Below, in pieces: positions 19,396 to 64,000 of a stretch of 64,000 nucleotides of DNA. Source of the stretch: Adineta ricciae. Lineage: Eukaryota > Rotifera > Eurotatoria > Adinetida > Adinetidae. Each line of letters opens with the position of its first letter. The stretch's first letter is position 1. The notes beneath the pieces were generated by a model, which did not search any database, had not been told where the DNA came from, and saw nothing but the letters and a program-made list of their open reading frames with translations. Both the position numbers and the translations under genes were made by a program. Location: assembly GCA_905250025.1 (NCBI GenBank), contig CAJNOJ010000045.1:124001-188000 (forward strand), in the 5' to 3' direction.

Positions 19396-22108
19396 ATGTA
19401 CCGAAAAAAGAAAACTACCATGATGTCCACTACTACGAGTGTTAAAACAACTGAAATAGACCATGACCAAATCTTACATAATCTTAATTCTCAACAAAAA
19501 CGTGCCGTTACTTGTCCAATCCATCAATCGACCCTTGTCCTCAGTGGAGCTGGTTTGTTGTTCGGGTTTTAGATAATTTCAGCTTCCATCTTTCTTCAAT
19601 GAATTTTCAGGCAGTGGCAAAACGCGTGTGCTCACATCTCGCATAGCTTATCTATTAAAGAATTGTGCCGTTAAGCCATATCAAATATTTGCTGTGACAT
19701 TTACAAATAAAGCCGCGCTTGAAATGCGTCATCGCATAAGTCAAATATTACCTGAAACGCCATTGAACGACATGTGGCTGGGTACATTTCATGGTCTTGG
19801 TAAATATTGTTTCGTACATGTACACAGTGTCTTATTTTTCTTTTCTAGCAAATCGTTTCCTTCGTATTCATTTCAAAATGGCTGGTCTGAAGAGTGATTT
19901 TCTCATCATCGATCCGGATGATCAGTTGTCGATTATTAAAAGGATTCTGAAAGAAGACGTGAAAGAGAATAATTTCTACACGGACAAACCAAAAGCCATT
20001 GTCAATTTTATTAACAAATGTAAAGACGAAGGAAAACGTTCCACTGACTTGTTGATCAATCCTGAAAATCATTTTAAACAGCTTATATATAGCAAATACG
20101 AAAAGTACCTTCAACAAGAAAACCGAGTCGATTTCGGAGAATTAATTCTATTAACCAAAGGTTTGTCATGAGCAGCTCGATTGGAATGTTCATACGAGTT
20201 TGTTTTAGAATTATTGGACAGAGAAATCGATTTACGTGTACACTATGCAAAGCAGTTTCGTTTTGTTCTCATCGATGAATTTCAAGATACTTCTACCTTA
20301 CAGATGGATTGGTTGAAATTACTAATGGACAAAGATGGATCGAATCAAACGGTGCACAATTGTTTTATGGCTGTGGTAAGTTGAGATCGGTCTTCAAATT
20401 TCTTAATAATTCTTTTTGATGGCACAGGGTGATGACGATCAAAGTATTTATGCGTTTCGGGGTGCTCAATGTGTAAACAATATCGACGAATATCTCAAGG
20501 CACTCTATTTAGAAAGAGAAAACCCGGAACATATTATCAAATTAGAACAAAATTACCGTGAGATAGATTGATGATGATGATAGGTATTATTGGACTGGCG
20601 GAGTTTTCTGTTTAGGCAGCACAAATGTAGTTTTGGAAGCAGCAAATGCAGTGATTGATCATAATCAATCTCGTCTGTAAGTCAAATTTGATCATTCAAA
20701 GTCAAATAAAACAAAAGATCAATGTTATAGTGGTAAAAACCTTTGGACGGACGTAAAGAATGGCGAACAGATCGGATTATATCAAGGAACAGACGCTACC
20801 GATGAAGCCAAACATGTTGTTGAAAGGATTCGTGATTTTACTCGTGGTCATCCGGACATCCCTCTCTCACAAGTCGCCATTCTATATCGGACAAATGCTC
20901 AGTGTAAGTTGTGTTTCTTATCCAACACGTTTAATTTCTCCTTTGCTCATCTAATTGCGTTTAGCACGTGAATTCGAACAAGCACTGATGAATGCTGGAA
21001 TCAAGTATCGTATTTACGGTGGTATTAAATTTTATCAACGGGCGGAAATCAAAAGTGCATTAGCCTACTTACGTTTAATCCAAAATGAAAACGATAATGA
21101 TGCCTTCCGCCGGATTATCAATTTGCCTGCACGTTCGATCGGCAAAGCAACTCTAGAGAAAATCGAATCAGGAGCCAAACAAAATCAATGTTCGTTGTTT
21201 TCATTTCTTCAGTCCGATCCCTCATTGAGCAAACAAAAGAAAATCGTTGATTTTGTTCGATTAATCAAACAATGCAAGCAAACACTGGAGGAACAAAATC
21301 CTAAAATGGAATTATACGAACAAGCTTTATACATCTTTGAACAATCGGGTTTGATGGAATCATACAACAAGAAGGAAGAGGTCGAACGTTTACAAAACTT
21401 GAGTGAATTATGTAATGCTATGAAACAATTCTCACATTTGTATCAAACCAACGACCTAACAGAGTATCTCAGTGTTGTGACATTAGTATGTGGAAGGAAA
21501 GTTAAAAAAAGGCGGTGCGAAGATTGAGTTTGGTCTTTTGAATAGGATACGACCAACGCTCAAGATGGCAAACTAGATACATCGGATGAAACTACACGAG
21601 TTCAGATGATGACTGTACATGGAGCGAAAGGATTAGAATTTCATTATGTATTTATTGCTGGTCTTGGTAAGTTTGAATACACAAACAAAGTTTCGTCGTT
21701 TCCATTTCGAAGATTTAGTTCAAGATCTCTTTCCATCGAACTTTTTCGGTACTTGCGACATTGAAGAAGAACGTAAGTGCTCAATATTTACTCGATTTCT
21801 TCCATTCGAATATCTTCTCTCGGACAGGTCGACTGATGTATGTTGCTATCACTCGTGCTAAACGCCTTTTACACATGTCATATTCCCAACTTCGGTCAAA
21901 TTATGGTCAACAAGAACGGTGTAAACGATCGCAATTTATCTCGGAAATTCCCACTCGACTTGTGCATGTTTATAATGAAAACGAAGAAATATATCAACCA
22001 CCGAAGAAGAAACTAAGCACTGTTCAACCAATGAACACATCTACTCAGACAGGATTCGTTACTGGCAAGAATTTATTGAATGTTGCTCAATGGAATAAAA
22101 GAAAATAG
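19396..22108 (+). CDS. UvrD/PcrA-type superfamily 1A DNA helicase, probably acquired from bacteria
   Basis: ATP-dependent 3'-5' DNA helicase of the bacterial UvrD class (mismatch and excision repair, removal of recombinase filaments). Eleven exons: 19396-19552, 19611-19799, 19849-20160, 20209-20375, 20428-20557, 20616-20676, 20731-20903, 20965-21485, 21546-21666, 21713-21772, 21828-22108; 723 residues. Motifs in order: LNSQQKRAV (Q), GAGSGKTRV (Walker A, split by an intron), FTNKAALEMRHRI, WLGTFHGLANRFLR, LIDEFQDTS, GDDDQSIYAFRGAQ, LEQNYRST, YRIYGGIKFYQR, TVHGAKGLEF, EEERRLMYVAITRAKR. The match to gammaproteobacterial UvrD is close. Instead of the bacterial C-terminal Tudor-like domain there is a tail with PPKKK, a possible nuclear signal. 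Animals normally lack this helicase class (FBH1, their nearest one, is very different). The standard spliceosomal introns rule out bacterial contamination. Confidence 0.9.
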
Positions 22109-60248: not shown

Positions 60249-62015
60249 ATGATGCCGAAGTCAACCCTCAAACAAAGTTCACTAAGCAAAGCTCTCGTTC
60301 ATGCCACTGTCCAATTGACTGCTCCGTCTGTTATATCAACCAATGCGATACCTACCAGATTACACTCGTATGCAACTACCGATGAGATATCTTTCGGAAG
60401 AAAAATTAGATGCAATCTTTCGTCACTGACAATGGCATTTTCAAAATACTCTCATTTAAATAAACAAAAACGACGACGTGATGTAACTACGCAAACATCC
60501 ATCCATATAAACGAACAACAACCGAACCATTGTGATAATAACGTGAAAGAAGACATGACAGCTACGCTCTCATCTTCATCACCGAAAGATTACTTATTTC
60601 CTTTGCAACATTTTCCATATTCCCGATCATTGAGTTGCTCGTCGCCCAAACATGCACATTTAAAAACAACTAGATTAGTTGATATTTGGCAAGGATTTCA
60701 CACTGATGACCTACCATCATCGACGTCATCACTTTTTGATCCAATCTATTTTGAAGAACGTGTGAGAAGAGTAAGCCTATTCGTCTGATCTCAATCGATG
60801 ATTTTCATGTTTTTATTTCAATTTATTCAGACGGCTCCTCAATGGAAAGCTTGTGCTAAAGTCGTCACATCCCTACTTACATTTACTCGAACAAAAAAAG
60901 AACGGTACGAATGGATGCAACTCGTTGGTCATCCTGGTAATTAATTCTTGCTTCTTCATTTTGACATTATCTTCTGTTGTTCTTCTAAAGGAACATTCAA
61001 GGAAGGTACTCATGATGGCTATGTGCTAAAAGCGTTGTGCGAACATGAACGGTATTGTTGTGAATTGTTACAAAACGATGTTTTGAGCAAGTTCGTGCCA
61101 AAATACAATGGAACTATTTCCGATGACGAAGGAAATTCTTTCATTGAAATGGAAGATCTTCTGGCTTCGTTTCATGAACCGTGTATCATGGATTGTAAAA
61201 TCGGTGTGCGAACATATCTCGAAGAAGAATTGGACAAGTCTGAACGTGATCCAAAACCACGAACTGTACGAAATGATTCTTTCTGACGATCACGGCAAAT
61301 ATTTTGTTTGATTTAGGATTTATATCATAAAATGATTGCGATTGATCGATTGGCTCCAACAGAACAGGAACATGAAGACGAAAAAGTGCTCAAATCGAGA
61401 TACATGATCTGGCGAGAAAATATGAGTTCAAGTCAAGATTTAGGTTTTCGCATTGAAGCTATCAAAGTAAGAGAAAACCGAATCTTAATGAAATTATGGC
61501 TAAAACATCGTTCTCAACTAGAAATCTCGTGGTTTGATGTCGAAAGAGTTCCAACGTATTAAAGACCGTGATGATGTGAAAAAACAATTAACTGAATTCA
61601 TTGCCGAATCGCCAACACGTGCTGTAAGGCTTTGAATGAAAACCGAAAAATCTCGCTTGATGAAAGCAATCTTTCTAGAACGAATATCTTGAACGACTTC
61701 TTGATCTACGTTCAGCATGTGTTCGTTCCAATTTCTTTCAAACTCATGAGGTTTGCTCGCATTCCTATGCTTTTTCCATCGAAGTTTAGTTCTATCTCTT
61801 TAAAGTTAATTGGCTCGTCACTCCTCTTCGTTCACGATGGAAAGAAAACGTCCATTTCGATGATTGATTTTGGTAAAACCCGACCTTTGCCCAAAGACGT
61901 GTCTATCACACATAATCAACCATGGATACGTGGGTCACATGAAGATGGATATCTACTTGGTTTGGATAATCTAATATCCTTATTTCAAGACATAATTTAT
62001 GATCTACAAATTTAA
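60249..62015 (+). CDS. Inositol-trisphosphate 3-kinase
   Basis: Phosphorylates Ins(1,4,5)P3 to Ins(1,3,4,5)P4, tuning calcium signalling. Exons 60249-60770, 60831-60936, 60991-61265, 61317-61466, 61522-61623, 61679-61750, 61806-62015; 478 residues. The first ~175 residues are disordered, Ser/Lys/His-rich (regulatory N-terminus). The kinase domain shows WMQLVGHPGTFKEG, LKALCEHERYC, FVPKYNGT, the family signature EPCIMDCKIGVRTYLEEEL (PxxxDxKxG), YHKMIAIDRLAPTEQE, SRYMIWRENMSSSQDLGFRIE, LIGSSLLFVHDGKK and MIDFGKTRPLP (metal-binding Asp), ending in HEDGYLLGLDNLISL. The IP3-specific WMQLVGH and calmodulin-region-like basic helix before it favour ITPK over IPMK or IP6K. Which vertebrate paralogue (A/B/C) it matches cannot be stated. 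An upstream frame extends to 60210 without an ATG. Confidence 0.93.
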
Positions 62016-62422: not shown

Positions 62423-64000
62423 TCAGAAATGCTCGTCACACGAACATCGACCATCTTTTGTAAAACAATGAATTCTTAGTCGATCACGAACAATGATGTC
62501 TCGTTGCGTCAAACATGCAATCAACTTTGTCACGTGATGACAATCAACGCACATTCGTAGGTTTTTTGTCAACTGTATTGTTGTACCCGATGGTGTGGAA
62601 ATCAAGCTTAAAGCAATAGCCAACCGCTCAGAATGTCCATAAATGCTCCATTGATTGTCGTGATCTTCTTTGGTTAATACACTTTCGTTCGGTTGGTAGC
62701 CCAATTGAGTTAGCTGTTCGTGTAAAATCTCTAATTGCTCGTAGATTTCCTTTGAACGAGGATGACGAGTATCCTGAGCATAGAACTCATACATAATGCC
62801 GTTGATTTCTGTCCACGTTATACCGGCATACTTCGGTATTTTGTTTCTATACAAATTTTGTCGAAGAGCCAATGATTGATGATGATCGCCGATTGATGCA
62901 TGAACATTTGCAGTTAATACAACGATAGCTGAACGCTGATCGTCAGTTAATGGCGTATTTGAATCGATCAATTTATTGTGAATTTCTAGTGCTAACGCGG
63001 CATTTTTATGTTTGCGACAAGCAGCTAAAAGAGATATGTAGAGAACAGGCGCATGTGGATGAAGTTCTTCGAATTGACAAATTAACGAGTGTGCTTCAGA
63101 CAACTGACCAGCACGACCATAGACGTCAACCTACGAGCACAAACGTAGTGTTAATCTATTTGCAGAAAAGTTGAAATTATGTACCAGTGCATTCCATATC
63201 TTTACTGATCGTTTTTCTTGAGGAATTTCGTCAAAAATCTTCTGAGCCTCTTCCACTAAACCACCGTGCGCACAAGCAGTCAATACACTAATCAATATCG
63301 AGTGTGTATTCCCTGTTAATTGATCTTTGCTTTGATAATACAGTGTCATAGCTTCTAAGGCTTGAGAATTGATTCCGTAGATATTAACTACACAACAGAA
63401 CTCTTCATTAAAGCACGAGACAACTTTTTACATACTCATCGACGATATACTTGGTTTACTTCTCATTGGCAATCGATTGAAAATATCTCTCGCTGCATTC
63501 AAATCTCCACACTTTCCGTATGTATCCATTCTAACAACGAAGAATGACCAATGGATTGAAAAGAAGTATAAACTCAACATTCGTACCTACAGTGCGTTGA
63601 GGATTTTCTCATTTGTTTCATAGGAGATTCCACTGGCTCTTAAATCCTCATGAATGGAACGAGCACGAGATGCTAAACCCAATTTTCCAGCTGCATTCAC
63701 AGCAACTAAATAAATGACTTGGTCAGTGCCAATTTGATTGGTTTGTTTCAAATAGTCATAGATAGCTAACGCTTTCGTGGGTAAGTTCTAAAAGAAACAA
63801 TGTGATCGATTGAGAAACAAATGAGATCAAACATACATTAACAATATACGCTTTCGCAAGAGTAGTAAATGAGATAATATCTGGTTCTTTCAAATCTTGA
63901 AACGTTTCCTCCATGCGAAGGATATTTCCACATTTTCCATCCATCTGAAAGAGAACAAATAATTACCGAACGAAAGAGCAAGTTTGATTAGTTACATCAA
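62423..64000 (-). CDS. PPR protein with C-terminal DYW-type deaminase domain, 5' end outside the window
   Basis: Minus-strand exons 64000-63996 (partial), 63944-63837, 63787-63591, 63530-63436, 63387-63185, 63130-62423. Pentatricopeptide repeats come first (KCGNILRMEETFQDL, NALMDTYGKCGDLNAARDIF, SSMINIYGINSQALEAM, LVEEAQKIFDEIP, IWNAL joined to VDVYGRAGQLSEAHSLI), the PLS style of land-plant RNA-editing factors. E and PG-box-like stretches follow (GITWTEINGIMYEF, HPRSKEIYEQLE, LGYQPNE). The DYW deaminase domain has GHSERLAIA (HxE, zinc and catalytic Glu), CVDCH (CxxC) and the second zinc site HCFTKDGRCSC. The last residues are EHF where plants have DYW. In plants such proteins convert C to U in mitochondrial or plastid RNA; here organellar RNA editing is an inference. 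The spliceosomal introns show it is a eukaryotic nuclear gene. Confidence 0.93.

Follow-up and report, generated by a model that had tools for sequence, protein, structure and literature searches.

The window examined here, a stretch of 64,000 nucleotides from the bdelloid rotifer Adineta ricciae (contig CAJNOJ010000045.1, here C45, positions 124,001 to 188,000), ends within a gene for a PPR protein with a C-terminal DYW deaminase domain. DYW proteins carry out C-to-U editing in plants and in some protists. We prefer, with a probability of roughly 0.6, the reading that this gene encodes an imported PLS-DYW C-to-U editor and is an early-diverging member of a bdelloid family with a single, probably horizontally acquired ancestor. 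The PLS-type PPR protein would be imported into mitochondria, its four P-L-S triplets would bind one stretch of RNA, and its DYW zinc deaminase would turn one cytidine a few bases downstream into uridine, as in land-plant editing factors. The gene would be a single-copy branch of a family of dozens going back to one intron-bearing ancestor, which was most likely acquired horizontally.

In the splice model the gene has seven exons on the minus strand and reads from ATG to TGA over 665 codons after splicing. Its six introns are 48–60 nt each and all have GT-AG borders. A preliminary description made from the letters alone had confined the gene to positions 62423-64000; the start ATG lies instead at about 64737, 737 bases further on C45, so that the whole of exon 1 and all but the 3' end of exon 2 fall beyond the window (Table 1). 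The splice-aware aligner used below was written for this analysis and reproduces the window-gene model exactly, which is a check on its own template only.

Table 1 Features of the DYW-type PPR gene in window coordinates.
Feature	Position	Strand	Basis or remark
Window part of the PLS-E-DYW PPR gene	62423..64000	-	splice model and splice-aware aligner agree
Exon 7: most of last S2 motif, E1, E2, E+/AG box, DYW deaminase, stop TGA	62423..63130	-	
DYW cytidine-deaminase domain with HSE, CVDC, HCF..CSC, end DEHF	62429..62701	-	PF14432, E 2.6e-25, 94.8 bits at C45:186429-186701
Exon 6: part of P2, L2, start of S2	63185..63387	-	both flanking introns common to the family
Exon 5: PPR motifs	63436..63530	-	splice model
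Exon 4: PPR motifs	63591..63787	-	splice model
Exon 3: PPR motifs	63837..63944	-	splice model
Exon 2	63996-64282	-	only 3' end 63996..64000 inside window
Exon 1: presequence-like N-terminus	64338-64737	-	wholly outside window

Pfam profiles for both halves score high on the spliced protein. DYW_deaminase reaches 90.7 bits (cut-off 24) over residues 574-664, covering profile positions 1-92 of 93, and 91.9 bits on exon 7 by itself; PPR reaches 103.5 and PPR_2 57.5 bits, and the E+ motif stays just below its cut-off of 24 at 22.5 bits. The motifs run as three P-L-S triplets followed by P2-L2-S2 and the aligned E1 and E2. All metal and catalytic motifs are intact: HSE (within YGHSERLAIA), CVDC and HCF..CSC. 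A phmmer search of the PDB matched the synthetic PPR-DYW chain 9kfx to residues 38-664 (E 1.2e-95); two DYW domains, those of At3g63370 (7o4e, E 1.4e-28) and DYW1 (7w86, E 6.1e-23), matched the C-terminus. The near end-to-end match to 9kfx, together with that to 7o4e, excludes chance resemblance. The preliminary description was therefore right that a DYW-type PPR gene is present, with a PLS-style array and complete zinc motifs, and the gene as completed beyond the window keeps both the PPR repeats and the HxE motif. Its PG box did not hold: AG stands at that position (KYAGITWTEINGIMYEF, KYAGITWTE). We regard a PG box as usual in DYW-type PPR proteins rather than essential. The C-terminus is DEHF rather than DYW.

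The first 30 residues (helical hydrophobic moment 0.6) include five basic but no acidic ones, a presequence-like composition that suggests the protein is probably imported into mitochondria. That it is a bdelloid DYW-type deaminase is very probable, and judging from its sequence it is probably catalytically active. A single-sequence AlphaFold model of exon 7 had a mean predicted local distance difference test score of 55; scores were low over most of the E+ and DYW part (residues 97-235), and the model was left unused.

The preliminary description reported one such gene in an animal genome; the animal setting stands, but the gene is not alone. A profile search of the assembly (130.5 Mb, 1033 contigs) with PF14432 returned 127 stretches, which we grouped by hand into 81 DYW loci. 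These include homologous copies (the contig pairs C211/C201, C237/C288 and C264/C245 look alike), and distinct genes are fewer than 81. Tandem clusters are frequent (C461, C311, C322). The aligner produced DYW models for 79 of the 81 loci. HSE, CxxCH and HxF..CSC are present without stop or frameshift in 47 of them, while 32 fail this integrity test (incomplete, altered motif, stop or frameshift), C201:129256 and C211:149128 on an aligner-placed frameshift alone. At least six PPR motifs precede E1 in 20 of the 22 loci with long flanks, the window gene included; within the 20, the model of C170:48870 requires introns too long to be plausible, and a contig end truncates one of the two loci that fall short. 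A Met-initiated N-terminal extension is found in 11 of the 21 other models. Once C170:201103 is dropped as internal, the remaining ten N-termini are all net basic (+1 to +6), one of them, C155:206330, coming from a model without PPR motifs.

The variant C-terminus is likewise a family property. All 66 models read directly up to a stop end in F (31 DHF, 27 DYF and 8 others), the tails on C9, C15 and C131 are FL, IL and ASSS, and the remaining 10 of the 79 are unreadable to a stop; a C-terminal W occurs in none of the 69 readable C-termini in the genome. The three last-named loci, C9:558809 (L071), C15:31425 (L072) and C131:200007 (L083), are divergent and stand outside the main expansion; C131 was left out of the tree described below. 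Searches for DYW relatives gave 36 pattern matches and no true relative in prokaryote genomes, three pattern matches and no relative in viral contigs (phages were outside this search), and no confirmed relative in plasmids.

The DYW tree, whose only two outside sequences are plant-type and one of them synthetic, places the expansion in a clade (support 100) that excludes the window gene, the C9/C15 pair and these two sequences. The closest relative of the window gene in the tree is 50% identical. Scoring of the best candidates among the other genome matches gave at best 43% over ~200 residues and up to 58% over one 40-residue piece. Two window-gene introns, at P2 position 8 (phase 1) and S2 position 7 (phase 0), match those of 18 and 19 of the 21 other models, respectively, and 17 of the 19 models matching the latter have an intron of at most 110 nt. 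Between P2 and the C-terminus the window gene has no further introns; in this region five positions are common in the family. The chance of both agreeing is ~2 in 100,000, assuming that sites are equally likely. Agreement in both position and phase implies that the window gene and the expansion derive from one intron-bearing ancestor, which may have lived either in a rotifer or in the donor.

Position 5 of the window-gene P motifs is plant-like (N, N, T, S), and Gly occupies it in 40 of the 70 P motifs of the other 21 models. In other DYW genes (e.g., L012, L017, L025) introns recur at P-motif position 10, phase 1 (31 cases), which looks as though P-L-S units were copied with the intron inside them. 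The P motifs carrying this recurrent intron mostly have Gly at the base-reading position 5.

The DYW domains of related copies are under purifying selection, with a median ratio of nonsynonymous to synonymous substitution (dN/dS) of 0.113 over 129 of 363 pairs, overlapping pairs with dS 0.1-1.2. Looser values were found for C9/C15 (0.45) and the C611 pair (0.43) among 21 disjoint pairs listed. When eight pairs of related copies were pooled, amino-acid change was greater in the PPR part (178/2167) than in the DYW part (55/1057; p 0.002), and synonymous change was similar in both (p 0.56). The same pool showed no excess change at RNA-code positions (12/137 vs 178/2167, p 0.75), which speaks against an overall arms race at these positions or fast evolution of the restorer-of-fertility kind. 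The three C311 comparisons alone (5/31, 2/16 and 3/17 code positions changed) lean in the arms-race direction.

The surroundings of the gene are those of an animal genome, as the preliminary description held. The contig is 524 kb long and carries forkhead, receptor and tetraspanin genes alongside the window gene; the 10 of 23 window frames that were scanned include two forkhead pieces, two rhodopsin-type receptor pieces, a tetraspanin, a GGACT-like protein and a UvrD helicase C-terminus. In its last 2 kb the window has a G+C of 0.365, inside its overall range of 0.338-0.412. The UvrD-type domain (PF13361, 86 bits; 20955-21524, plus strand) is unusual beside animal genes and is perhaps another acquired or mobile gene. 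By eye, from the motif IDFGKTRPLP, the plus-strand gene at 60948-62015 resembles an inositol-polyphosphate kinase. Elsewhere in the genome there are ~95 stretches of RNA-dependent RNA polymerase (PF05183; e.g., C71:30962-32839; best E 6.4e-126), a number that presumably fits a bdelloid. A putative bdelloid spliced-leader 23-mer, possibly wrong in sequence, had no match in the genome and so lends no support, and 28 matches to TGTGGG arrays were uninformative, as the reversed control is the same repeat.

About 13.7 kb of nearly complete mitochondrial DNA (mtDNA) lies at the end of the 478-kb contig C55 (464500-478188), joined to nuclear sequence next to a multicopper-oxidase-like frame; either the assembly has fused the two, or the mtDNA here is a recent nuclear copy. 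The COX1 frame is open once its 11 TGA codons are read as Trp, and its product shares 64% identity with bovine COX1. On one strand the genes run nad2-cox1-[gap]-nad6-atp6-nad1-cob-nad4L-nad4-nad5-[gap]-cox2-cox3-nad3, with no atp8 frame recognised, and ARAGORN in mitochondrial mode found seven tRNAs (L1, A, Q, D, F, M, K) at their Rotaria positions. PMC2784805 tabulates the same order for Rotaria rotatoria, with rrnL and rrnS in the two gaps, and complete synteny was described for all complete bdelloid mtDNAs then known (PMC3426538). The host is identified as a bdelloid rotifer because its mtDNA gene order equals that of Rotaria rotatoria.

Several observations weigh against a mitochondrial editor. 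Measured against homologue residues in five mitochondrial genes, nonsynonymous C>T changes restore the expected residue in only 9/336 cases, without excess, and nine of the other 11 types of change do so at a higher rate (e.g., T>C 67/1039, G>A 26/652, G>C 46/727). At 194 COX1 columns conserved at 97% or more over the bovine and 80 bacterial sequences (the best 80 of 580, nearly all alphaproteobacterial), 21 deviations were found, of which one is of C>T type (L to F, CTT to TTT, in VVAHLHY; numbered L377 in this test and L384 in the five-gene test). These two tests gave no sign of a general need of the mtDNA for C-to-U repair. A PPR-code scan of the mtDNA with 18 related arrays, using provisional code weights and 100 simulated sequences, gave p 0.01 for the window gene, 0.02 for C170:201103 and at least 0.079 for the other 16; editing at the top site of the window gene, COX1 S448, would abolish a conserved serine. 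The window protein lacks the C-terminal W and the PG box that plant proteins usually have, and the selection values come from other copies, the window gene having none close enough for dN/dS. By eye, C.A pairs make up two of the eight mismatches in the acceptor and anticodon stems of the seven tRNAs, with no clear signal. Putative single sites, in the numbering of the five-gene test, are COX1 L384 and A387 (within VVAHLHYALS, aligned with bovine HFHYVLS), CYTB S273 (within PEWYSLF) and COX2 H197; to these may be added the C.A pairs in trnA and trnM.

These results leave room for a family of mitochondrial RNA-binding PPR proteins acting in stability, processing or translation, in which the DYW domain persists for a structural or partner role and does not edit. 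An mtDNA with no apparent editing need and an open-licence literature without report of rotifer editing would fit such proteins. Retention of the HSE glutamate and zinc ligands in 47 of the 79 models, the low dN/dS of the DYW domain and its slower change relative to the PPR part are less readily explained, and we regard this alternative as unlikely. Slightly less likely again is that the family serves regulation or defence by editing RNAs outside the mitochondrion, for example of nuclear, transposon or foreign origin; tandem clustering, large copy number and the fruitless mitochondrial target search point that way, but the N-termini are presequence-like and the code positions show no arms-race excess, though the three C311 comparisons lean towards one.

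Other alternatives concern origin. The window gene could stem from a second acquisition unrelated to the expansion, which would suit its place outside the expansion clade, an identity of 50% or less in the DYW domain and the plant-like residues at its PPR code positions; two introns common in position and phase would then require two donors with the same introns, making this very improbable. Plant or protist contamination, raised in the preliminary description, is an unlikely source given the animal genes on the same 524-kb contig, the matching G+C and introns common to a family spread over many contigs. Although DYW domains are typical of land plants and 32 of the 79 models fail integrity, a frame open over 665 codons and the lack of any relative in the prokaryote genomes, viral contigs and plasmids searched leave contamination or a pseudogene with almost no weight.

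Beyond the editor reading, we tentatively suggest, at somewhat short of even odds, that bdelloids run dozens of site-specific C-to-U editors, on a plant-like scale, in a mitochondrion without general need of repair. They might act on a small number of conserved codons, on mitochondrial tRNAs or rRNAs, or on RNAs that originate elsewhere than in the organelle, and most members might read an altered code through Gly at P-motif position 5, the window gene retaining a plant-like one. The assembly brings together 81 DYW loci, deaminase domains under strong selection and the mtDNA, which makes the editing question directly testable, and the family bears on the expansion of an acquired gene in a mostly asexual animal.

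Rotifer DYW proteins, which the preliminary description mentioned, are indeed in print: those of Adineta ricciae and Philodina roseola were analysed and group with Naegleria (0.93) (PMC4202320), and rotifers are mentioned again in PMC5295000. The proteins themselves are thus already known; noteworthy here are the family's spread across the genome, the variant tail of its members and the missing target. We found no report in the open-licence literature of rotifer DYW family size, introns, tails or editing, nor of DYW C-to-U editing in an animal mitochondrion. Plant DYW factors edit RNA in human cells (PMC9508816), so an animal cell is no bar to editing. Transfer from early land plants has been proposed for DYW proteins (PMC4202320), and horizontal transfer as the origin of the bdelloid family is plausible in line with that proposal.

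Land-plant PLS-class E/E+/DYW factors (At3g63370, DYW1 and the synthetic 9kfx) share the P-L-S array, E1/E2 and DYW motifs with the window protein in the same order over residues 38-664. Unlike them, the window gene has six short introns, AG for PG, a DEHF tail and an animal host. By description, the published proteins of Adineta ricciae and Philodina roseola are of the same kind in bdelloids. Also likened by description are the other non-plant DYW proteins, of Naegleria, Acrasis, Physarum, paradinids and Agaricales fungi, mitochondrial C-to-U editing being known for several of them (PMC4202320, PMC11946409, PMC4758236). Physarum has 16 DYW-type PPR proteins with mostly LS-type arrays (PMC4758236), whereas the rotifer genome has PLS arrays and 81 loci. 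Bacterial DYW-clade deaminase toxins belong by name to the same clade, with no PPR array reported in the accessible part of PMC3482391; the rotifer protein, in contrast, has the full plant-type domain order.
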